A stretch of DNA of 37,224 nucleotides from Limisphaerales bacterium (GCA_009773355.1 WRPG01000051.1:1-37224), one strand, 5' to 3'; counted from the first letter of the stretch, positions 22,056 through 36,809 are shown. Numbers and translations are program-made. The notes: generated from the sequence alone by a model not told the origin.

Positions 22056-23249
22056 ATGAGTGACGCCATTCTGGAGGTGGATTTCGGTTTCCCGCTTGGA
22101 AAGCGAAGCTTTCAAAGTCATCAGGAGCTTCTGGTTTGGTGGGAGAAGGAAAGGACTTTTTGGAACCGCATCCTCAACGACAAAGCCGCTCAATCGGCAG
22201 GTGATATTCGCTCTTTCCTTACTCAGCCTCTTAATCAGTGTGACAGAACTCTCCGAGAAGGGGCGCAGCCTTGGACTTCTGAAAGTTCACCAAACCAAAC
22301 CGACGCTCTCAAGAATTGGATGCGAAACGCCAAGAGCGTCCTTGAAGGTCATTATCTAAACGGCACGCTCTTCCTCGCGGATAGCCCAAAGGGACAGTTC
22401 TTATCCGGTTATTTTGAGAAGAGAGGTGCTTTGGCAGCGGTCTATGCAGCCAGCTTTCTCCTCCGACTGGGACACATGAACCAGTCATATCTGAAACAAG
22501 AGGCAGAATTTGCAGCCTTCTGCTTTCAGGAAGGTCTGGCGAACCGTGCAGATGCAGAAATCAGCGCCTTGAAACAAGCAGAAGCAGAATGGCAAGAAAG
22601 CCGCCGGATTCACGGCGAGGAGATGAAAGCACTCAAAGGAGAAGCAGCCGAGTGGGGCGAGAAACAAGGAGCTTTGCTCAATGCATTCAGAGAAGATACG
22701 AAAACCCTGAAGGGCGGATTCGATACGATGATGAAGGATGCCGATGGAGACTTGGCTAGAATCAAGGCGACCTACGACCGGAAACTCGCACTTCATGCAC
22801 CGGTCTTATATTGGCGGGCAAAATCATTCCGCCACGGCCGAGCTGCTACTCAGATTGGGCGATGGACCTTGAGCGCAGTAGTGGCCTCAACTGCACTACT
22901 GATGTGGGTTGCCTACGAATTCTTGGTCAGCCCCATTCACAAGCAACCAAATTGGAAACCCGAACTTGGGAACTTCTTCGCCGTTGTGCTCATTGGTTCT
23001 GTCCTTGTGTGGCTCATGCGCGAACTGGTGAAACTTTGGCTCAGTGAGGTGCATCTCCGCCACGACGCACAATTTCGAATCGCGCTGCTGCGAACCTACT
23101 TGTCGCTGCTGAAAGGTGAGAAAGGAATTGGCGACAAGGACCAGTCGGCACTTGTAGCTGCGCTTTACCGGCCAACACCAGATGGCGTAGTTAAAGAGGA
23201 CACTACGCCAGCGAGCTTGCTGGATTTCATCGCTCAACGCCTGAAATGA
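22056..23249 (+). CDS. Membrane protein with coiled coil, DUF6161-like
   Basis: A 397-residue protein from ATG 22056. An N-terminal soluble region with FQSHQELLVWWEKERTFWNR and EGHYLNGTLFLADSPKGQFL is followed by a long charged helix (~165-250, e.g. KQAEAEWQESRRIHGEEMKA) likely to form a coiled coil. Two membrane spans come next (~265-290, TLSAVVASTALLMWVAYEFL; ~310-330, FFAVVLIGSVLVWLM). The C-terminus contains HDAQFRIALLRTYLSLLKGE and ALYRPTPDGVVKEDTTPASL. This layout matches what I recall of the DUF6161 family of unknown function; that assignment is from memory. GC content and third-codon bias are visibly lower than in all neighbours, a sign of recent acquisition. Direct repeats flank the segment that contains it. 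Confidence 0.83.
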   Translation: MSDAILEVDFGFPLGKRSFQSHQELLVWWEKERTFWNRILNDKAAQSAGDIRSFLTQPLNQCDRTLREGAQPWTSESSPNQTDALKNWMRNAKSVLEGHYLNGTLFLADSPKGQFLSGYFEKRGALAAVYAASFLLRLGHMNQSYLKQEAEFAAFCFQEGLANRADAEISALKQAEAEWQESRRIHGEEMKALKGEAAEWGEKQGALLNAFREDTKTLKGGFDTMMKDADGDLARIKATYDRKLALHAPVLYWRAKSFRHGRAATQIGRWTLSAVVASTALLMWVAYEFLVSPIHKQPNWKPELGNFFAVVLIGSVLVWLMRELVKLWLSEVHLRHDAQFRIALLRTYLSLLKGEKGIGDKDQSALVAALYRPTPDGVVKEDTTPASLLDFIAQRLK

Positions 23250-26270: not shown

Positions 26271-28430
26271 ATGGAAATCATCATCGCTGGAATTGTGATT
26301 GTGGGTCTGCTGGTGCTCGCGGCCGGCGTCGCCATCTGCATCCGCAAGATCCCGCCCGGCAAGGCCGGCGTCATCGTCGGCGTGGGCGGCATGCGCGTGT
26401 CGTTTGACTGGATGCTGCGCCTGCCCATTGTCCAAACCCTCGAACTGGTGGACATCTCGGTGAAGAAGCTGGAGATCCACCGCAAGGGCAAGGACGGCCT
26501 CGTCTGCAAGGACAACATTCGCGCGGACATCTCGGTGGCTTTCTACATCCGGGTGGACGCCACGCCCGACAGCGTGCGGCGGGTCGCCCAGATGCTCACG
26601 CCCGACCGCGTGTCGGACATCAACCAGCTCCGCGAGCTGTTCGAGGCGAAGTTCTCCGAGGCGCTCAAGACCGCCGGCAAGCAGATGGAGTTCCACGAGC
26701 TGTTCACCGAGCGCATCAAGTTCCGCGACCAGATTCAGGTGACCATCGGCAAGGACTTGGATGGCTTCATCCTGCAGGACGTGGCGATTGACTACCTGGA
26801 GCAGACGCCGCTGGACCAGCACGACCCGAGCAACGTGCTCGACGCCGAGGGCATCAAGAAGATCACCGAGATCACCCAGCGCGAGCGCGTCATTGCCAAC
26901 GAGTTTTCCCAGCGCGCGCAGGTGCAGGTGGAGAAGGAGAACGCCGACGCGGACATCGCCAAGCGCGAGCAGAAACGCCGCAACGAGGAGGACACCGCCA
27001 AGCAGACGCGCGCCATCACCGAGGTCAAGGCCAACGAGGAAGCCGAGTCGCGCAAGGTCATCGAGAACCGCCGCCGTGAGGTGGAGGGCAAGCGCATCGA
27101 AGCCGAGGAATCCATCCGCCTCCGTCAGGAGGACATGAACCGCGCCGTGCAGGAACGCGAGTTCACCGTGAAGAAGGAAAAGCAGCGGCTCGATCAGGAA
27201 TCCGTTCAAGAGGGCGAGGAGGCGCGCGTCCGCCGCGAGCGCACAGTGTCGCTCGCCGAGATGGACAAGGAAGTGAAGGTCGCCGAGGCCGCCGTCGAGG
27301 TGCAGCGCAAGCGCGCCACGGTTGTCGCCGAGGAGAAGGGCGTCGTCCAGCAGCAGCAGGAGAAGGACAACATCGAGGCGCGCATGACCGCCGAACGTGT
27401 CCGCGAGGTCACGCTCATCGAGGCGGACATGATCGCCAAGAAGGAGCAGGTCGAAAAGGTCGTCGCCGCCGAGGCGCAGAAGGAAGCCGACCGCCACCAT
27501 GCCGAGGGCGAGAAGATCAAGGTCATCACCGCCGCCGACGCCGGGCGCGATGCCGCGGTCCGCGATGCCGAGCGCCTTCAGACCACCGCCGACGCCGAAG
27601 CCAAGGCGAGCGACAAGAAGCGTCACGCCGCCGAACAGCAGGCGGAAGGCATAGCCGCGATGGAAGCTGCGAAGGGGTTGGCAGAGGCGCGCGTCATCAC
27701 GGCGAAGGCCGGAGCCAAGAAGGCCGATGCCAGCGCCATAAAGGAAGTTGGTCTAGCTGAGGCCGATGTCACCAAGGCCAAGGGCACCGTGCTGGCCGAG
27801 AACACCCAAACGCAGGCTGAGGCTGAGGCCGCCGGCACGAAGGAACGCGAGCTAGCCGTCGCCACCGGCATCGAGGCGAAGGGTCTGGCCGAGGCCAAGG
27901 CGATTCACCAAAAGGCCGAGTCCATGAAACTGCTCCACGCCGCCGGCAAGGAGCACGAGGAGTTCAAGCTTCGGCTTGCGAAGGAACGCGACGTCGAACT
28001 GGCCGCCATCCATGTGCAACGCGACGTGGCGCAGGCGCACTCGAACATCGTGGGCGAGGCGCTCAAGCACGCGCACATAGACATCGTCGGCGGCGAGAAC
28101 GACTTCTTCGAGAAGGTCGTGAAGGCTGTCGGCACCGGGAAGTCCGTGGACCGCATGGTGCAGAGCAGCACCACGCTCACCGACGTGAAGAACACGTTCT
28201 TCAACGGCGACCCGGAGCACTTCAAGACCCAGGTGCGCCAGTGGGTCGAGGACTTCGGCCTCAAGAGCGAGGACATCAAAAACCTCACGCTCTCGGCGCT
28301 GCTGGCGAAGCTCATCGCGTGCGCCAGCGACGGCGGGGTGCGTTCGCTGATGGAGTCCGCGCTGGCAATGGCGAAGGACAAAGGCTTAGGAGACACACCG
28401 GCGAGCGCGGTGGTGGCCGGTAAGAAGTAG
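26271..28430 (+). CDS. Flotillin-like SPFH/band 7 protein (YqiK type)
   Basis: A 719-residue protein from ATG 26271. An N-terminal membrane helix (~2-24, EIIIAGIVIVGLLVLAAGVA) is followed directly by the SPFH domain (~28-195), including RKIPPGKAGVIVGVGGMR, KDNIRADISVAFYIRVDATP and IGKDLDGFILQDVAIDYLEQ. A very long Ala/Glu/Lys-rich helical region (~200-580) should form the flotillin coiled coil. The C-terminal part (~600-700) is globular (NDFFEKVVKAVGTGKSVDRM). E. coli YqiK has about 550 residues, so this is a long member. Flotillins oligomerise into membrane cages or microdomains. It is the first gene of a four-gene, same-strand block with a DNA-repair-type ATPase and a PLD-like protein. Confidence 0.92.
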   Translation: MEIIIAGIVIVGLLVLAAGVAICIRKIPPGKAGVIVGVGGMRVSFDWMLRLPIVQTLELVDISVKKLEIHRKGKDGLVCKDNIRADISVAFYIRVDATPDSVRRVAQMLTPDRVSDINQLRELFEAKFSEALKTAGKQMEFHELFTERIKFRDQIQVTIGKDLDGFILQDVAIDYLEQTPLDQHDPSNVLDAEGIKKITEITQRERVIANEFSQRAQVQVEKENADADIAKREQKRRNEEDTAKQTRAITEVKANEEAESRKVIENRRREVEGKRIEAEESIRLRQEDMNRAVQEREFTVKKEKQRLDQESVQEGEEARVRRERTVSLAEMDKEVKVAEAAVEVQRKRATVVAEEKGVVQQQQEKDNIEARMTAERVREVTLIEADMIAKKEQVEKVVAAEAQKEADRHHAEGEKIKVITAADAGRDAAVRDAERLQTTADAEAKASDKKRHAAEQQAEGIAAMEAAKGLAEARVITAKAGAKKADASAIKEVGLAEADVTKAKGTVLAENTQTQAEAEAAGTKERELAVATGIEAKGLAEAKAIHQKAESMKLLHAAGKEHEEFKLRLAKERDVELAAIHVQRDVAQAHSNIVGEALKHAHIDIVGGENDFFEKVVKAVGTGKSVDRMVQSSTTLTDVKNTFFNGDPEHFKTQVRQWVEDFGLKSEDIKNLTLSALLAKLIACASDGGVRSLMESALAMAKDKGLGDTPASAVVAGKK

Positions 28431-28484
28431 GGGCTGAAGTTTTTTCCAGCCTTGGTGGCACGATGAACGCGAGCACGCATCCAG

Positions 28485-28720
28485 CAGGCGCGGAGCGCCG
28501 CCAGAAAGTAGCCCACGGCGTGAGCCGTGGGTTGGCGGCGAGAGAATCCAAAGCCCCAGCGGGGCGACAGAATCAATCTGCGCACTACTACAAGCGATAC
28601 GTGTTTGAATGAAGCCGTTGGGTTCAGTGAAGTTCTGCCGCCCCTCCGGGGCTTGCTCTCGTTTTGCGACTCACCCACGGCTTGCGCCGTGGGCTACTTT
28701 CTGGCGGCGCTCCGCGCCTG
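28485..28720. repeat. Inverted-repeat element with 48-nt arms
   Basis: The left arm 28485-28532 and right arm 28673-28720 are inverted copies matching at 46 of 48 positions (core CCAGAAAGTAGCCCACGGCG). A second inner pair follows: AAGCCCCAGCGGGGCGACAG near 28551-28570 against CTGCCGCCCCTCCGGGGCTT near 28635-28654. Each arm contains its own CCCACGG-CCGTGGG hairpin. No gene fits inside. The element separates the flotillin gene from the giant ATPase gene and ends 15 nt before the latter's start codon. Confidence 0.88.
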
Positions 28721-28735
28721 TGCCATCGCTTCATC

Positions 28736-31700
28736 ATGGCTGACTCGGCCTCAACTCCTCCCGCCGCTCCATCGGCCGCGACCGCCCTCGGCGGCGCGAC
28801 CTACGAGGTCATCCGGCAGCGGCTCGGCACGCACGCGGAGGCGTTGCGCGAGCGCATGGCGAAGCTCGATGCGCGGCGCGGCGAGGTCTTCGGCAGCATC
28901 GAGTTCAAGCTGTTGCAGGCCGACCGCGTCACGACCGCGCACAACTGCATCCCGCAGGACATGGTGCAGCTCGGCAGCGGACAGTTCCTCTTCGGTTTCA
29001 ACGTGCAGTTCGGGCTGAAGAAGGACATCGAGCTGGCGGACGTCTTCGCCATTTACGCGCGCGACGACGCGGCGGGCATATGGCGCGAAGCCCCGCTGGA
29101 CGCGTTGCAGGACAAGCATTTCATCACGGACTTCAAGCGGCTGTATCAGGTCTATTCGCGCGCGTCGTTCCACAAGTTCTCGCTCGTCGAGGGGCACCTC
29201 TACATGGTCTTCCGCACCGGCACGGGCGGGAGCGACCTCGCCGTCTTCAAGTGGCTCTACAACGACGGCCGCCTGCGCTACGTGGACGGCCGGAGCGAGG
29301 CGGAGTTCCGCAAGGTGGGCTTCCCGCCGCCGCACTCGTTCCGCTGGCGCACGCCGGACCGGCAGTCGTTCCGCTACGGCGACCACCCGCACGTTTCCAT
29401 CGCCGACCGCGTGTTCGTCGAGACCATCGAGGGCGACCTGACCATCAAGGTCGAGGACAACACCGCCACGGGCGAGGGCATCTACTCCGAGCCGGTCGAG
29501 GACAAGTTTCAGAAGGTGGACGACGCGGAAATCACCTACGCCGAGCTGGGCCATCTCATCCTGTTGAAAGTCCGGCCCTACAAGGAGGCCAACGCGCGCT
29601 ACTTCATCTTCAACGAGAAGACGCAGACCGCCGACCGCGTGGACAGCATCGGCCAGTCGTGCGCGTTGCTGCCGGAGGAGCACGGGCTGATTTTCCCGGA
29701 CGGCTACTACCTCGGCACTGGCGAGCTGAAGCGCTTCGAGACGCACGAGGAGCCGATGACGCTGGAGCGCGTCATCCACTCGGCCAACGGCGAGGATTCG
29801 CTCTACGTGTTCTTCAAGCCGGAGACGGGGCATTACGCGCTGATGCCCTACCGGCTCATCGCGCAGAAGGTCGAGGAGCGCATCACCTGCAACGGCTTCT
29901 CGCTCTTTCCGAACGGCCACCTCGTCGTCTTCCGCGCGGAGGCCGAACCGCAGCGGCACCACTCGATTCAACTGCGGCAGACGCCGTTTTATCAGGCCGG
30001 CTTCGAGCCGCCGGGCAAGCGCGACGCCTTCCTCTATCAGGTCGGCAACAAGGAGGTCGTCCGCTGCCTCGCCGAGTGCAACGAGGTGCTCACGCTCGCG
30101 CGGAAGGAAAATCCCTACGCTGAGCTTTACAGCGACCTCGTGAAGCGCTGCGACGCGATGCTCGACACCTACCCGTGGCTCACGCACGCGGAGTGCTTCG
30201 CGCTCGACGCGGCGCTGCGCGAGGTGCGCGCGGCGGCGGACCAAGCAGTGGCGGAGTTCGACAAGGTGCGCCGCCTCCAGCGCGAGGCCGTGCAGCGGGT
30301 GAAGGAAATGAAGGCCCGCTGCGAGGAGCGCTTCAACATGGTGCGCCGCGCGAGCTTTCGCGTGCTGAATGACTTCGTCGCGAACCTGGCCGCACTCCGG
30401 CAGTTGCGCGGCGAACTCATCACGCTCAAGGAAGTCCGCTACGTGGACTTGCCGGTCATTGAGGCCACCGAGGCCGCCGTGACCACGCAGACGGAGGAGC
30501 TGTCGCGCGCGTGCGTGAAGTTCCTGCTCCAGCCGGCGGCGCTGGAGCCTTACCGGAAGCAGGCGGACGAGCAGCTTGCCGGCGTGGAGAAGGTCGCAAA
30601 GGCGGCAGAGGGCCGGCAGGTCGAGCAGGCCGTCGCCAAGGCGGGCGCGGAGTTGGAGATGCTCATCGAAATCGTCAACAACCTCAAAATCGAGGACGCG
30701 ACCGAGACGACGCGCATCATTGACGGCATCACGGCGGTTTACTCGACGCTGAACCAAGTGAAGGCGGCGTTGAAGAAGCGCCTGCAGGAGCTGGTGGCCG
30801 TCGAAGGCGCGGCGCAGTTCAGCTCAAAGCTCAAGCTGTTGAGCCAGTCCGCCGCGAGCTACCTCGACCTCTGCGACACGCCCGCGAAGTGCGACGAGTA
30901 TCTCAACCGGCTCACGGTGCAGATCGAGGAGTTGGAGGGCGCGTTCGCGGACTTCGAGGAATACACGGTCCAGCTCGCCGAGAAGCGCACGTCGCTCTAC
31001 GAGGCGTTCGAGCAGCGGAAAGTCGCGCTCGTCGAGCAGCGCAACCGCCGCGCCGCCGCGCTGCTCACCGCCGCCGAGCGCATCCTCAAGGTCATCCAGA
31101 ACCGGCTCGCGGGGATGGACTCGGTCGAGGCCATCCACACCTACATGGCGTCGGACCTGATGATTGCGAAGGTCCGCGAGCACGTCGCGCAGCTCCTCGC
31201 GCTGGGCGACTCGGTGAAGGCCGATGACCTGCAAGGCCGGCTCAAGAGCGTGCAGCAGGAGGCGGTGCGGCAGTTGAAGGACCGGCAGGAGCTGTTCACC
31301 GGCGGGCCGAACGTCATCACGCTGGGCCGGCACCAATTCAACACGAACACGCAGCCGCTCGAACTCACGGTGGTCAACCGCGACGGCGTGCAGCACGTCC
31401 ACCTGACCAGCACGAAGTATTTCGAGCCGGTCACCGACGAGGCGTTTCTCGCGACGAAGGATGTGTGGGACCAGGAAGTCATCTCCGAGAATGCCCAAGT
31501 CTATCGCGCGGAGTTTCTGGCGTGGCAGCTCTTGAAAGCTTGCGGAGCGCCGGTCTCCGACCCGGCGCGAACCGATGGAAACGCCGGGTCGGAGACCGGC
31601 GCTCCGAGTATCGCAGGCATCGTCGCGATGTCCGACGAATCCCGCCTCGCCGCCGTGCAGCACTTCATGCAGTCCCGCTATGCCGAGGGCTACATGAAGG

Positions 31701-34192
31701 GCATCCACGACCTCGACGCCGCGCGCGTCTTCCACACACTGGTCACCACGCACACCTCGCTCCGCCTCGCGCGCTACCACCCGACGGTGCGCGCCTGCGC
31801 CGTGGTGTGGTGGCTCCGCTTCTGTCCGCCGGACACCCGGACACTCTGGACGGCCAAACTCAAAGGATTCGGCGCGCGCAGCCGACTTTTCCCCGGCGAC
31901 CCCACGCAGCAGGTCTACATCACGGCATTGCAGGCGCTCCTCGCGGTGTTCATCGAGGAGACTAAACTCTTCGCACCGGAGCTGGCCGCGCCCGCTGGCG
32001 AATACCTTTTCCACGAGCTGACCACGGGCGACACCTTCGCCTCCAGTCACGAGGCCGAGCAACTCACCTCCGCCCTCCGCCAGCATCTCGTTGTGAAGGG
32101 CTGCGAAGACGATTTCGCTCAGGCCCGTCAGGCGCTCGCGGCGCATCCGGCGAGTGAGTTCGAACTGGTGCGCGACTGGGTGCGTGGCTTCCTGCTGGGG
32201 CAGGGCGGTCTCACGTATCTCGACGAGGTGGCCGCCATCCTGTTCTGCGATGCCACCCTGTCCCGCGCGATGGTCTCCGCCAGCACCACTGCGACGCTTG
32301 AAGGCATGAAAGGCGCGCACGGCACGGTGCGCGAGAGCCGCTACCGCTTCGATTACCTCGCGTTCACCGACAAGCTCCGCCGCTTCGAGCGCGAGGTGGT
32401 GCCGCGCTTCGAGCAGTTCCACCGCCTCAAGCAGGAACTGCTCGACCGCGAGCGCGCCAAGCTGCGGCTGGACGAGTTCAAACCGAAAGTCCTCACCTCG
32501 TTTGTCCGCAACCAGCTCATTGACCAGGTCTATCTGCCGCTCGTCGGCGACAACCTCGCCAAGCAGGTCGGCGCGGCGGGCGCGGCCAAGCGCACCGACC
32601 TGATGGGCATGCTGCTGCTCATCTCGCCGCCCGGCTACGGCAAGACGACCTTGATGGAATACGTCGCGAGCCGGTTGGGCATCGTGTTCGTGAAAATCAA
32701 CGGCCCCGCGCTCGGCCACAACGTCACGTCGCTCGACCCGCAGGAGGCGCCCAACGCCGCCGCGCGCGAGGAAATCCAGAAGCTCAACCTCGCGCTGGAG
32801 ATGGGCGACAACGTGATGATCTGCGTGGACGACATCCAGCACACAAACCCGGAGTTTCTTCAGAAGTTCATTTCGTTGTGCGACGGCCAGCGCCGCATCG
32901 AGGGCGTCTGGCGCAACAAGCCGCGCACCTACGACCTGCGCGGACGGAAGGTCGTCGTGGTGATGTGCGGCAACCCCTACACGGAGAGTGGCCTGAAGTT
33001 CAAGCTGCCGGACATGCTCTCCAACCGCGCCGACACATACAACCTCGGCGACATCGCGGCGGGCGGAAACGCCGATTCCTTCAAGGCCAGCTATCTCGAA
33101 AACGCCGTTACCTCGAACCCCGTGCTTGCGCCGCTGGCGAATCGCAGCCAGAAGGACGTGCGCACCTTCATCCGTCTCGCCGCGACCGGTGCAGGCCAAA
33201 TTGAGGGTGAAACCTTCGAGGGCAGTTACTCGGCGCAGGAGGTCGAGGAGATTCTCAGCGTCATGCGGAAGCTGGTGACCATCCGCGATGTGGTGCTGCG
33301 GGTGAATCAGGAATACATCGCGTCCGCCGCGCAGGCCGACGAGTTCCGCACCGAGCCGGCGTTCCGCCTGCAAGGGAGCTACCGCAACATGAACCGGCTC
33401 GCCGAGAAGGTCGCGCCCATCATGAACGATGCGGAAATCCGCGCGCTCGTGCTCGCGCACTACCGCAACGAGTCGCAGACGCTCACCACCGGGGCCGAGG
33501 CGAACATGCTCAAGCTCAAGGAACTCCTCGACGCGCAGTCGCCCGAGGAGAAGGCGCGCTGGGAGGAAATCAAGCGCACCTTCAAGCGCAACCAGTTCAC
33601 GCGCGGCGCGGACACGTCCGACCCGGTCGGGCGGCTCGTGGCGCAGCTCGCGACGTTCCAGGGCGGCCTCGAATCCATCCGCGACACGCTGGACCAGCGC
33701 TTGTCCGCCGCCGCGAAACCGGAGGAGAAGTCCACCGTGGAGGCGGACGTGCTCGCGAAGACCATCGAGGCGTTGCGCGCGAGTTTGGAGAACCGGAACG
33801 CCGCGCCCGCCGCCAGCGGCACGGACATGACGGTGGTGGTGAAGCAGTTCACCGATGGCATGAAGGCGCTGCGGGTGGAGTTGAGCCGCGCGCTGCGCAC
33901 CGCACACTCCGGCCAGCTTGCGCAAAAGGTGGACAGCCTCACGCACGAACTGGAGCAGATTCATTGCACGATGAGCAGCGTGGAAGACCTCGCCCGTCAG
34001 CAGCGCGACCAGTTGCAGGGCGCAAAGGACTTGCTCGCCGCCCGCGCCAAGCAGGGCACGCTCGAAGTCGAGGTGACGCAGGAGATGCTGGAGAACCAGA
34101 GCATCTTCCTCCGCAAGTTCAACGAGGCGCTCGTCGCGGCGAAGCAACCGCAAGCGCCCAAGCCGCCGCCGATTCCCGGAGAAACGGAATGA
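28736..34192 (+). CDS. Giant AAA ATPase, 'DNA repair ATPase' (DUF3686) type
   Basis: An 1818-residue protein from ATG 28736 (MADSASTPPAAPSA); the open frame continues 24 codons upstream into the repeat arm. The N-terminal ~450 residues match the DUF3686 pattern as I recall it: GGATYEVIRQRLGTHAEALR, LFGFNVQFGLKKDIELADVF, HPHVSIADRVFVETIEGDLT, and IKVEDNTATGEGIYSEPVED. Helical, coiled-coil regions occupy ~500-900. The AAA domain follows, with Walker A PPGYGKTTL (Lys1303) and Walker B VMICVDDIQH (Asp1365-Asp1366), then an MCGNPYTESG sensor-like strand and DMLSNRADTYNLGDI. More coiled coil ends the protein (~1560-1810). An in-frame palindrome encodes ~936-957. The family is annotated as a DNA-repair ATPase, but a biochemical role is not established to my knowledge. 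It neighbours a flotillin and a PLD-like nuclease. Confidence 0.92.
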   Translation: MADSASTPPAAPSAATALGGATYEVIRQRLGTHAEALRERMAKLDARRGEVFGSIEFKLLQADRVTTAHNCIPQDMVQLGSGQFLFGFNVQFGLKKDIELADVFAIYARDDAAGIWREAPLDALQDKHFITDFKRLYQVYSRASFHKFSLVEGHLYMVFRTGTGGSDLAVFKWLYNDGRLRYVDGRSEAEFRKVGFPPPHSFRWRTPDRQSFRYGDHPHVSIADRVFVETIEGDLTIKVEDNTATGEGIYSEPVEDKFQKVDDAEITYAELGHLILLKVRPYKEANARYFIFNEKTQTADRVDSIGQSCALLPEEHGLIFPDGYYLGTGELKRFETHEEPMTLERVIHSANGEDSLYVFFKPETGHYALMPYRLIAQKVEERITCNGFSLFPNGHLVVFRAEAEPQRHHSIQLRQTPFYQAGFEPPGKRDAFLYQVGNKEVVRCLAECNEVLTLARKENPYAELYSDLVKRCDAMLDTYPWLTHAECFALDAALREVRAAADQAVAEFDKVRRLQREAVQRVKEMKARCEERFNMVRRASFRVLNDFVANLAALRQLRGELITLKEVRYVDLPVIEATEAAVTTQTEELSRACVKFLLQPAALEPYRKQADEQLAGVEKVAKAAEGRQVEQAVAKAGAELEMLIEIVNNLKIEDATETTRIIDGITAVYSTLNQVKAALKKRLQELVAVEGAAQFSSKLKLLSQSAASYLDLCDTPAKCDEYLNRLTVQIEELEGAFADFEEYTVQLAEKRTSLYEAFEQRKVALVEQRNRRAAALLTAAERILKVIQNRLAGMDSVEAIHTYMASDLMIAKVREHVAQLLALGDSVKADDLQGRLKSVQQEAVRQLKDRQELFTGGPNVITLGRHQFNTNTQPLELTVVNRDGVQHVHLTSTKYFEPVTDEAFLATKDVWDQEVISENAQVYRAEFLAWQLLKACGAPVSDPARTDGNAGSETGAPSIAGIVAMSDESRLAAVQHFMQSRYAEGYMKGIHDLDAARVFHTLVTTHTSLRLARYHPTVRACAVVWWLRFCPPDTRTLWTAKLKGFGARSRLFPGDPTQQVYITALQALLAVFIEETKLFAPELAAPAGEYLFHELTTGDTFASSHEAEQLTSALRQHLVVKGCEDDFAQARQALAAHPASEFELVRDWVRGFLLGQGGLTYLDEVAAILFCDATLSRAMVSASTTATLEGMKGAHGTVRESRYRFDYLAFTDKLRRFEREVVPRFEQFHRLKQELLDRERAKLRLDEFKPKVLTSFVRNQLIDQVYLPLVGDNLAKQVGAAGAAKRTDLMGMLLLISPPGYGKTTLMEYVASRLGIVFVKINGPALGHNVTSLDPQEAPNAAAREEIQKLNLALEMGDNVMICVDDIQHTNPEFLQKFISLCDGQRRIEGVWRNKPRTYDLRGRKVVVVMCGNPYTESGLKFKLPDMLSNRADTYNLGDIAAGGNADSFKASYLENAVTSNPVLAPLANRSQKDVRTFIRLAATGAGQIEGETFEGSYSAQEVEEILSVMRKLVTIRDVVLRVNQEYIASAAQADEFRTEPAFRLQGSYRNMNRLAEKVAPIMNDAEIRALVLAHYRNESQTLTTGAEANMLKLKELLDAQSPEEKARWEEIKRTFKRNQFTRGADTSDPVGRLVAQLATFQGGLESIRDTLDQRLSAAAKPEEKSTVEADVLAKTIEALRASLENRNAAPAASGTDMTVVVKQFTDGMKALRVELSRALRTAHSGQLAQKVDSLTHELEQIHCTMSSVEDLARQQRDQLQGAKDLLAARAKQGTLEVEVTQEMLENQSIFLRKFNEALVAAKQPQAPKPPPIPGETE
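31543..31606. repeat. Perfect 25-bp palindrome inserted in frame in the giant ATPase gene
   Basis: CGGAGCGCCGGTCTCCGACC and the next five bases (31543-31567) are followed after a 14-nt spacer by an exact inverted copy at 31582-31606. Its outer CGGAGCGC block is shared with the intergenic element at 34223-34291. The insertion keeps the reading frame and encodes residues ~936-957 (CGAPVSDPARTDGNAGSETG), a Gly/Ser/Asp-rich, probably surface-exposed loop between helical segments. Confidence 0.9.
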
Positions 34193-34222
34193 CACAGAAC
34201 GCGCCAAGTTTCCATTACCGGT

Positions 34223-34326
34223 CGGAGCGCAGGAGTCCATCCTGCGCGTTCCAGTCGAATCACCTCACGCAGGTTGGACACCTGCGCTCCGCTTTCCTCC
34301 GTGTCCATCTGTGTTCATCCGTGGTT
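34223..34326. repeat. Palindromic repeat plus dispersed CCACGGATG-type repeat
   Basis: CGGAGCGCAGGAGTCCATCC with the next four bases (34223-34246) is matched inverted at 34268-34291 at 22 of 24 positions. The outer CGGAGCGC is shared with the in-gene palindrome at 31543. Directly after it, 34303-34326 is an inverted, diverged copy (20 of 24) of 14857-14880. The whole lies between the giant ATPase stop at 34192 and the next start codon at 34341, so two repeat families are stacked in one 148-nt spacer. Confidence 0.8.
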
Positions 34327-34340
34327 AACCCATTCCTGCC

Positions 34341-35156
34341 ATGAAAAAAATGCTTCGCCGGGCCAAGGAACTTTCCGAACAAGCCGAGCGCGTCCGTGAG
34401 CTGCTCGAATCCGCGCCCGAGCGCATCGAGCAGGCCAAGGGCATCGTCACGCTCACCACCAGCCAGCTCCAGCAGCTCCGCACTGATGTGCAATCCAGCA
34501 TCGCCGGCCTCCGCGCGGACACGGGCGACGCCGTCACCGCCGCCGTGCGCGAGCTGAACGAGGGCGCGCCGACCTTCCTCCGCGCCGGCTACGCCCTCAG
34601 CGGCGTGGACATGGAACTCGGCATCGCGCCGCGCGTGACCGCACATCTGGAGCGGATTGAGGAAGTGGGCATCCCGGCCATGCGCGCGCTGCTGGCTCCG
34701 AACAGCGACCGTCGCACCATCCACGGCATCCTCTCCGCGCTGGTGAAGGCCGAGGAACTCGCGGACAGCACGCACTTCGAGGGCATGGAATACACCGAGG
34801 TCTCCATCCAGGTCGGCCCCGCGCCGACCATCCGCTTGCGCTGGCGTGCGTCGGCCTCCGAGGTGGAAACCTACGCCGCCAGCCCGCCGCCGATTCCAGG
34901 TGCGGCGGTTGCCGTTGCGCCGGCTCCCACGCCCGCGAAGCCCGCGACTTCCGCCACGCCGATGTTCGCTCAAAGCTCCTACTTCGAGCCGCGCAGCAGT
35001 GCCGTAAAGCCAGCCAGTCCCACGATTGCCGAGTCCGAGCCGCCGCCGCAACCGGTGCGCCAGCAGTCCGCCACTCCGGCTGCTACAGCCGAAGCCAATC
35101 GTGACCCGCTGGCCCGCTTCAAGAAGATGCCAAACCTTACGAAGCCACGGCGCTGA
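34341..35156 (+). CDS. Coiled-coil protein with disordered Pro/Ala tail, unknown
   Basis: A 271-residue protein from ATG 34341. Residues ~1-80 are a strongly charged helix predicted to be coiled coil (MLRRAKELSEQAERVRELLE, TTSQLQQLRTDVQSSIAGLR). Residues ~80-170 form a compact domain: FLRAGYALSGVDMELGIAPR, ERIEEVGIPAMRALLA, HGILSALVKAEELADSTHFE, and a strand pair VSIQVGPAPTIRLRWRA. The remaining ~100 residues are Pro/Ala/Ser-rich with a basic end (FKKMPNLTKPRR). No signal or membrane helix is seen. No family is recognised. It sits between the giant ATPase and the PLD-like gene, only 9 nt from the latter, so it is very likely co-expressed and could be an adaptor linking them. Confidence 0.85.
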   Translation: MKKMLRRAKELSEQAERVRELLESAPERIEQAKGIVTLTTSQLQQLRTDVQSSIAGLRADTGDAVTAAVRELNEGAPTFLRAGYALSGVDMELGIAPRVTAHLERIEEVGIPAMRALLAPNSDRRTIHGILSALVKAEELADSTHFEGMEYTEVSIQVGPAPTIRLRWRASASEVETYAASPPPIPGAAVAVAPAPTPAKPATSATPMFAQSSYFEPRSSAVKPASPTIAESEPPPQPVRQQSATPAATAEANRDPLARFKKMPNLTKPRR

Positions 35157-35165
35157 AGGCACCTC

Positions 35166-35864
35166 ATGCAGGACCACGAGCTGAGAGCGGCGCTGCGCCG
35201 GAGCCTGGCCGACGGCCAGTTCGACCGCACGGAGCGCGATGAGTTCCGCGCGTGGCTGGAGAACGCCTCACCGGATGGACACCGGCGGGCGGTTTGTCAG
35301 AGCATGGCCTTCGACCTCGCCCGCGAGGCCGTCGAGCAGCAGTCCGTCCCATTGCACTCCGCTCTGAACTGGCTGGAACGCATCGTCAAGCTCCTGACTC
35401 CGCTGGCGTCCGCCGGTTCACCGCAGACGGTCGCGGAAGCGTGCTTCAGTCCGCAGCACCAGTGCGCTGCGCGCATCGCGCAACTATTCGACTCTGCCCG
35501 GCGCTCGGCGGACGTGTGCGTCTTCACCATCACCGACGACCGCATCACGGAGGCCATCGAGAGCGCCCATCGGCGGGGAGTGAAGATCCGCGTCATCACC
35601 GATGACGAGAAGCAGTTCGACCCCGGCTCCGACGTGGAGCGCCTCGCACGGGCCGGCGTCCCCGTCCGTGTGGATCGGACGGCGTTTCACATGCACCACA
35701 AGTTCGCCATCTTCGACGGCGCGCTGCTCCTGACCGGCAGCTACAACTGGACCCGTTCCGCCGCGCAGAACAACGAGGAGAACTTCGTGCTCACCGGCGA
35801 GCCGCGCCTGCTCCGTCCCTTCGCACAGTTGTTCGAGGAGCTTTGGCGGCAGTTTTCCAGTTGA
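35166..35864 (+). CDS. Single-HKD phospholipase D-like protein, probable nuclease
   Basis: A 232-residue protein from ATG 35166, 9 nt after the previous stop. Residues ~1-90 are helical and include LADGQFDRTERDEFRAWLEN, an acidic DxxxDxxER pattern reminiscent of TerB-like domains; that resemblance is weak. Residues ~92-232 form one PLD domain: FSPQHQCAARIAQLFDSARR, VCVFTITDDRITEAIESAHR, RGVKIRVITDDEKQ, and the catalytic HHKFAIFD (His177, Lys179, Asp184) followed by GALLLTGSYNWTRSAAQNNE. One HKD per chain implies a dimeric active site, as in Nuc-type endonucleases and the mitochondrial PLD6/Zucchini group. No signal peptide is seen, so it acts in the cytoplasm. It ends the flotillin-ATPase block, 3 nt from the convergent cdsA stop. 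Confidence 0.92.
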   Translation: MQDHELRAALRRSLADGQFDRTERDEFRAWLENASPDGHRRAVCQSMAFDLAREAVEQQSVPLHSALNWLERIVKLLTPLASAGSPQTVAEACFSPQHQCAARIAQLFDSARRSADVCVFTITDDRITEAIESAHRRGVKIRVITDDEKQFDPGSDVERLARAGVPVRVDRTAFHMHHKFAIFDGALLLTGSYNWTRSAAQNNEENFVLTGEPRLLRPFAQLFEELWRQFSS

Positions 35865-35867
35865 GGC

Positions 35868-36809
35868 TCACCGCGTCAGCACATGGCGCAGGTAGAGATA
35901 CATCAGCGGCGCGTTGAACAGCAGGCTGTCCAGCAGGTCCAGGATGCCGCCGATGCCGGGGAAGTAGCCGCCGGAGTCCTTCACGCCGGCCTCGCGTTTG
36001 AAGAGCGATTCGATGAGGTCGCCGATGACCGCCGCGATGCTCAACAGCACGCCGAGCACGAGGGCGTGCGTGAGGTTCATGCCGTAGAGCTTCGTGCCCG
36101 CGAAGTGCGCAAACGCCACGCTCGCGCCCGTGGAAATCACCACCGCGCCCGCGAAGCCCTCCCACGTCTTTCCCGGGCTGATGCGCGGGATCATCTTGTG
36201 CCGCCCGATGAGCGACCCGGTGCAATACGCGCCCACGTCGCTGAACTTCGTCACGAGGATGAAGTAGAGCACGTAGAACGTCCCCGCGTCCGCCGCCGCG
36301 CCGGCCGGGAAGCGGAAGAACTCGATCTTCTGGATGAAGTTCAGCAGCCACGGCACATACATCAGGCCGAGCAGCGTGGTCGCCATCGCCACGATGCCGT
36401 TCGGGTTGTCCTTGGCGATGAACTGCCGGAGACAGAGGCCGAGAACGAAGAGAATGAGGAAGCTCGTCTCGAAGTCGTTGACCCGCGCCGGCGAGTCGTG
36501 GATGCCCAGTTTGCCGGCGCAATGCAAAAAAGTGCCCGCGACCATCAGCAGCCCCGCCGCCATGCCGAACTTGCGGAAGCACACCAGCCCGCGCGCCCGC
36601 ACCAGCCCGTAGAACTCGAACATCCCGCACGCCGCCAGCAGCAGCATGATGAGGATGAACACCACGTCCGACACCAGCTTGTGGCCACAGAAGAGCGCGC
36701 CGAGCACGACGGTCCAGAGCGCCAGGGAACTGGCCAGCCGGCGCAGGAACACTTTGCCCTTTGACGGGGCAGGGGACGGCGCGGGCGCGGCAGGCGTCTC
36801 GTTGGTCAT
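35868..36809 (-). CDS. cdsA: Phosphatidate cytidylyltransferase
   Basis: A 313-residue integral membrane enzyme making CDP-diacylglycerol from phosphatidate and CTP for phospholipid synthesis. The ATG at 36809 (MTNETPAAPAPSPAPSKGKV) is chosen because the open frame upstream encodes only low-complexity sequence. About eight hydrophobic spans follow. Diagnostic sequences: KFSDVGAYCTGSLIGRHKMI, PRISPGKTWEGFAGAVV, and the C-terminal signature SLFKREAGVKDSGGYFPGIG followed by GILDLLD. Compared with the classic family signature, His and Arg near the end (HGGxxDRxD) are replaced by Ile and Leu, while the Lys-Asp and the two Asp residues are kept. It is convergent with the PLD-like gene and divergent from the next gene. 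Confidence 0.95.
   Translation of the reverse strand: MTNETPAAPAPSPAPSKGKVFLRRLASSLALWTVVLGALFCGHKLVSDVVFILIMLLLAACGMFEFYGLVRARGLVCFRKFGMAAGLLMVAGTFLHCAGKLGIHDSPARVNDFETSFLILFVLGLCLRQFIAKDNPNGIVAMATTLLGLMYVPWLLNFIQKIEFFRFPAGAAADAGTFYVLYFILVTKFSDVGAYCTGSLIGRHKMIPRISPGKTWEGFAGAVVISTGASVAFAHFAGTKLYGMNLTHALVLGVLLSIAAVIGDLIESLFKREAGVKDSGGYFPGIGGILDLLDSLLFNAPLMYLYLRHVLTR

Follow-up and report, generated by a model that had tools for sequence, protein, structure and literature searches.

The window analyzed here, 37,224 nucleotides forming one contig (WRPG01000051.1) of a 6.2 Mb draft genome of a Limisphaerales bacterium (GCA_009773355.1; 162 contigs, 95% complete), which its relatives assign to Verrucomicrobiota, carries four genes on the + strand that encode a flotillin, a DUF3686 ATPase, a 271-aa protein of a family here named F9 and a PLD protein. 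All four ORFs were recovered with the layout given in a preliminary description of this DNA, and the features are as follows.

26271..28430, + strand: YqiK-family flotillin (SPFH), 719 aa (TM prediction, E. coli YqiK comparison, 12-member alignment)
28736..34192, + strand: DUF3686 AAA+ ATPase, 1818 aa (Pfam, alignment of relatives, structure model)
32621..32653, + strand: Walker A region of the AAA+ domain, SPPGYGKTTLM (motif alignment)
34341..35156, + strand: F9 family protein, 271 aa (homologues, alignment, structure model)
35103..35138, + strand: conserved C-terminal tail of F9, DPLARFKKMPNL, with the family form ALDRFKKMPDL (alignment)
35166..35864, + strand: single-HKD PLD protein, 232 aa, an optional member of the system (Pfam, motif alignment, structure-sequence matches)

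The genes are separated, in order, by 305, 148 and 9 nt, the last value being the distance between the F9 and PLD genes that had been reported before. Repeat palindromes occupy parts of both the 305-nt and the 148-nt gap, so one transcript is not to be assumed. Nor do all relatives keep the four genes on one strand, F9 being inverted in the marine ones. A sigma-70 promoter scan of the locus, a method that is uninformative for this phylum, found none. REP-like palindromes lie at window positions 28485-28720, 31543-31606 and 34223-34291; the REP motif CGGAGCGCCGGTCTCCGACC occurs 170 times in the genome with up to three mismatches, against 3 copies of a reversed control. One perfect copy with 25-nt arms sits in frame within the ATPase gene, in a length-variable loop (residues ~936-958), and further copies sit between the genes of the locus.

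The flotillin has a single predicted N-terminal TM segment (residues ~3-21), an SPFH region (~25-180), a very long coiled coil rich in Ala, Glu and Lys, and a C-terminal domain conserved in the 12-member alignment. Along an alignment of 456 aa it is 30% identical to E. coli YqiK (E 1e-36), and the family profile matches E. coli YqiK with probability 100, in agreement with its first reading as a YqiK-like flotillin with an exceptionally long coiled coil. The Pfam Band_7 model gave no match in any of the 12 family members tested, so standard annotation would stay silent on this family.

The ATPase measures 1818 aa from its ATG and 1842 aa from an upstream TTG at 28664. Pfam recovers DUF3686 (3e-162, residues 37-479), a region described as a beta-propeller in PMC11237479, and DUF7902 (2e-24) together with a coiled coil at residues 602-685; a helical middle, the AAA+ domain (~1245-1600) and a C-terminal coiled coil make up the remainder. 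Walker A (SPPGYGKTT), Walker B (CVDDIQ), the sensor-1 N and the sensor-2 region show almost no variation across 37 relatives, which upholds the earlier assignment to a DUF3686-type ATPase with intact Walker motifs. Neither a TM segment (by prediction) nor a protease domain (in Pfam) was found, and a search of the accessible literature for DUF3686 by name returned nothing. In the structure model the AAA+ part reaches a pLDDT of 86, and its closest folds by VIA-align, over 240-256 residues, are CbbQ2 (Z 16.4), NorQ (15.8) and dynein AAA1 (15.3), while Vps4 appears at 3e-4 among many AAA+ proteins in Foldseek and lies outside the best VIA-align matches. At this level of resolution the modeled fold favors a MoxR/dynein-like over a Vps4-like domain, and it argues for a remodeling motor. 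In one relative (locus L162, genome G438) the ATPase reads as fragments of 152 and 605 aa between the flotillin and F9, a possible sign of decay or of an assembly error.

The third gene had been described as an unrecognized coiled-coil protein, and this description still holds. No match to F9 was found in Pfam (15 members searched), NCBIfam, PHROG or the sequences of the PDB, and in fold searches the best results were E 0.47 in Foldseek and Z 5.9 in VIA-align, the latter on helices only, a missing match that says nothing on the novelty of the fold. Homologues are nevertheless present in 20 fetched loci, and F9 is therefore regarded as being under selection. The protein comprises N-terminal helices (residues 2-74), an alpha/beta core (84-170), a disordered linker (173-254) and the tail DPLARFKKMPNL (255-266), with no TM segment predicted. 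A model built on six sequences, of moderate overall quality (mean pLDDT 66), places two N-terminal helices before a core with pLDDT mostly above 85, beyond which a disordered arm leads to a short helix at the C-terminus. Within the otherwise variable linker a motif S-S/T-Y/F-F-E (SSYFE, near 209-217) is conserved, and the basic tail motif, (W)-R-x-x-A-L-D-R-F-K-K-M-P-D-L, is conserved at least as well as the folded core; judged from the alignment, these two linear motifs suggest that F9 has binding partners.

Several relationships were considered for F9 and rejected. Kinship with PspA is opposed by a PspA_IM30 score of 13.4 bits (E 0.06) against a cut-off of 33.9 and by an hhalign probability of 2%; kinship with YqiJ/NfeD by the missing TM segment and a probability of 0.2%; and kinship with CesT/Tir, with which F9 may still share a fold, by a profile probability of 0.1% for CesT_Tir_1. 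The tail also fails as a canonical ESCRT MIM, its spacing misfitting the MIM1 pattern. As a separate observation, two ATPases of YqiJ-type loci (L011 and L066), placed as sister to the F9 clade with a support of 77, have as their very last residues LERFKK, which also makes up the core of the F9 tail; the match was noticed post hoc in two closely related proteins and counts as one evolutionary observation, hence as a lead only.

It was in the gene neighborhoods that the locus proved unusual. The preliminary description had proposed a linked membrane system of all four genes, to be judged by how often the families co-occur. The flotillin lies beside the ATPase in 72 of the 80 relatives fetched, and F9 adjoins the ATPase wherever the contig permits a test, so that the linkage of these three families stands; the PLD gene, which neighbors F9 at just 7 of the 18 distinct loci with F9, is not a fixed member. 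What had been overlooked is that F9 occupies the place held by YqiJ/NfeD in the relatives. Most of the 80 carry upstream a YqiJ-like protein, identified by a profile probability of 96 against E. coli YqiJ, and in a wider count over 112 loci YqiJ occurred without F9 in 79, F9 without YqiJ in 18 (19 entries, L154 repeating L005), and both together in none. The same pattern was seen across 146 genomes of the order, with F9 in 13 and DUF3686 in 22: of the 10 that carry DUF3686 but lack F9, 9 have YqiJ, compared with none of the 13 that have F9. In 12 of these 13, DUF3686 lies near F9 on the same contig, and in the last the contig ends 82 nt past F9. A survey of 388 genomes from the whole phylum turned up F9 nowhere else, apart from one marginal match at 1.5e-4.

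Phylogenetic analysis of 38 ATPases grouped those of the F9 loci in a single clade (SH-aLRT 100), and a wider FastTree run agreed on this clade, with two entries cut by contig ends falling inside it. As the clade is monophyletic, YqiJ was exchanged for F9 once, in one Verrucomicrobial clade, and the resulting layout has persisted in at least ten families; because the replacement is one event, the exclusion of YqiJ by F9 comes without independent replication. The genes flanking F9 loci are mostly unrelated between loci, so the linkage of F9 with the ATPase does not reflect a shared neighborhood by descent alone. Linkage, exclusion and single origin are established, as are the domain folds. A rival view takes F9 for a passenger or a simple regulator that linkage has preserved without its being a physical part of the machine. 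Its reversed orientation in the marine clade and its lack of homology to known parts of such systems would fit a passenger, yet F9 remains next to the ATPase in all genomes that allow a test while the flanks differ, no F9 was found away from an ATPase in the 388 and 146 genomes except for the marginal match, and the two conserved motifs hint at partners; we hold this explanation to be distinctly improbable.

The type of system is already known. A 2024 paper (Ravi et al., mSystems, PMC11237479) already described the flotillin paired with the ATPase, in company with NfeD/YqiJ (its YqiJ/YuaF), PspA, CesT and, in some cases, a PLD; there the full operon has a CesT/Tir-PspA dyad, abbreviated versions lack it, and a PLD (HKD) protein occurs in some proteobacterial versions. 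The present locus resembles that operon in its YqiK-type flotillin beside a giant ATPase and in its PLD, and the PspA, CesT_Tir_1 and YqiJ genes that the paper lists were recovered in the fetched relatives; the ATPase itself was matched by domains and linkage set against the paper's description. It differs in having no YqiJ, PspA or CesT, YqiJ being absent from the source genome as well as from the locus, and this absence is why we file it as a variant and not as a standard member. New here is the replacement of YqiJ, beside the ATPase, by an undescribed coiled-coil family, F9, of which the accessible text of PMC11237479 makes no mention.

PspA and CesT_Tir_1 are present in canonical loci of Hymenobacter and relatives. 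No PspA was found in the source genome, a 95% complete draft, nor in the 13 F9 genomes of the order, and it is for this reason that PspA is dispensable for the F9 variant. An exclusion of PspA by F9 was also considered and dropped: PspA passes the cut-off in just 8 of the 146 genomes of the order, so that 0 of 13 is not significant.

Our preferred reading, advanced tentatively and at somewhat less than even confidence, is that the locus represents a form, specific to one lineage, of the envelope-maintenance operon with flotillin and AAA+ ATPase that Ravi et al. described, and encodes an inner-membrane remodeling machine in which F9 replaces YqiJ. The flotillin would tether a large SPFH assembly to the inner membrane, as its family suggests, and the ATPase, with its DUF3686 propeller, coiled coil and MoxR/dynein-type AAA+ ring, would dock on this assembly and, judging from its fold and partners, spend ATP on remodeling membrane-associated protein complexes. 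In most bacteria the partner of the flotillin is the small membrane protein YqiJ/NfeD; in the Verrucomicrobial clade, as the observed pattern shows, YqiJ was lost and the soluble F9 became a constant neighbor of the ATPase. F9 would most likely be an adaptor or a cycling substrate whose tail peptide is gripped by the ATPase or the flotillin, and the PLD protein would serve as an optional effector, with either phospholipid or nucleic acid as its target. A more specific proposal, namely that F9 founds a new family of AAA+ adaptors or substrates that took over from NfeD/YqiJ, and in which ALDRFKKMPDL, a peptide whose core the sister-branch ATPases bear themselves, docks the motor to the flotillin for a PspA-free, ESCRT-like remodeling, seems to us rather unlikely in that full form.

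The identification of the fourth product as a single-HKD PLD-like protein is confirmed by a PLDc_2 match (1e-30, residues 105-227) with an intact HxK(x4)D, accompanied by a GSxN motif in a GSYNWTRSA region; no TM segment was predicted. Its N-terminal helical domain (~1-80, window 35166-35405), with a TLxDxxxSRGEK pattern kept across phyla, has no Pfam match and is, by eye, reminiscent of TerB-like domains. The closest solved structures are those of mitochondrial cardiolipin hydrolase (MitoPLD; E 4.8e-39) and Zucchini, well ahead of Nuc (1.7e-19), with NucT also matched. Being nearest to MitoPLD/Zucchini, the protein could act on lipid or nucleic acid, and since nucleases (Zucchini, Nuc) belong to this structural family too, the substrate is not to be read from the sequence. 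The best match to MitoPLD, together with the membrane anchor of the flotillin, might point to lipid remodeling, in which the PLD would hydrolyze cardiolipin or another phospholipid in flotillin patches, with the ATPase and F9 controlling access; the occurrence of the same PLD family beside canonical systems in Pirellulaceae and Bacteroidota, and of a PLD in some proteobacterial versions (PMC11237479), would agree with it. We nonetheless consider this explanation unlikely, since the PLD is optional, its structural family extends to nucleases and it carries no TM segment, while the nearby CdsA gene is a convergent neighbor that occurs in genomes without the locus too.

Another rival is a nuclease machine, either as put forward earlier, with an ATPase that remodels or loads the nuclease, or as a phage-defense form of it: the ATPase would load or activate the PLD nuclease at the membrane, with F9 as the adaptor between them. 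The 9-nt spacing after F9, the matches to Nuc and NucT and the weak ones to the DrmC, DpdK and MkoB defense profiles speak for it, as does the higher frequency of DUF3686 in genomes with a full-length PLD (7 of 12, versus 15 of 134 others; Fisher p 3.4e-4, kinship ignored). Against it, 11 of the 18 distinct F9 loci lack an adjacent PLD, which adjoins few canonical loci as well; the full-length PLD, found in 12 of the 146 genomes, is often unlinked to the locus, as in G438 (on another contig), G434, G436 and G423, and occurs without a detected ATPase in five genomes; and its nearest structures are those of a cardiolipin hydrolase and Zucchini. In PADLOC, those PLD-domain profiles gave the only matches, the other proteins (flotillin, ATPase and F9) having none that convinces (E >0.005), and PHROGs returned nothing specific. 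Accordingly, the loading of a nuclease is not borne out, a phage-defense output finds no backing, and we regard a nuclease machine as very unlikely. In all five marine relatives (L004, L005 and L007-L009) a protein of 620-869 aa (cluster F22) directly follows the PLD; its member in L004 has no family match and looks multi-TM, and it is possible that this protein is a further part of a marine sub-variant.

Comparison with other systems helps to place the remodeling machine that we favor. The bac operon of P. aeruginosa (bacA-F) is co-transcribed and encodes the DUF2170/CesT-like BacA, the PspA-like BacB, a short NfeD and the flotillin PaFlo3, and a bacA mutant shows altered biofilm and rhamnolipid traits (PMC10948618, PMC13086221). 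That operon has both NfeD and PspA; the present locus has neither. Its bacE or bacF we presume to encode the DUF3686 ATPase. HflK/C-FtsH and other SPFH-AAA+ assemblies likewise combine a membrane SPFH scaffold with an AAA+ motor, but FtsH is a membrane-anchored protease, and the ATPase described here has no predicted TM segment or protease domain. With ESCRT-III/PspA and Vps4 the likeness goes no further than a functional analogy, in that a coiled-coil protein bearing a flexible arm and a terminal peptide stands beside an AAA+ motor; F9 shows no detectable kinship with PspA, and the AAA+ domain is nearest to MoxR/dynein. MitoPLD/Zucchini (PLD6) and Nuc share with the PLD the single HKD and the GSYNWTRSA region, while the latter differs in its additional N-terminal helical domain and its lack of a TM anchor.

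SPFH proteins organize membranes in nearly all organisms, by a mechanism still under debate, and NfeD/YqiJ counts as their usual partner. A stable natural swap of NfeD for an unrelated soluble protein, with the motor beside it unchanged, offers a ready-made experiment on the role of NfeD and on how the giant ATPase couples to the flotillin. F9, an orphan family, thereby gains a testable role, with a short peptide as the first thing to examine.

The locus is absent from each of five genomes of the same genus. Similarity of the DNA to four same-genus genomes stops abruptly at the stop codon of CdsA (window 35865-35873), and the gene beyond the CdsA end varies among these relatives, which suggests a junction prone to rearrangement; because that gene differs, gain, loss and rearrangement of the locus are indistinguishable. 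Elsewhere in the window, a DUF6161 gene (22056-23249) lies in a local dip in G+C content (0.51 versus ~0.65) and was possibly acquired.
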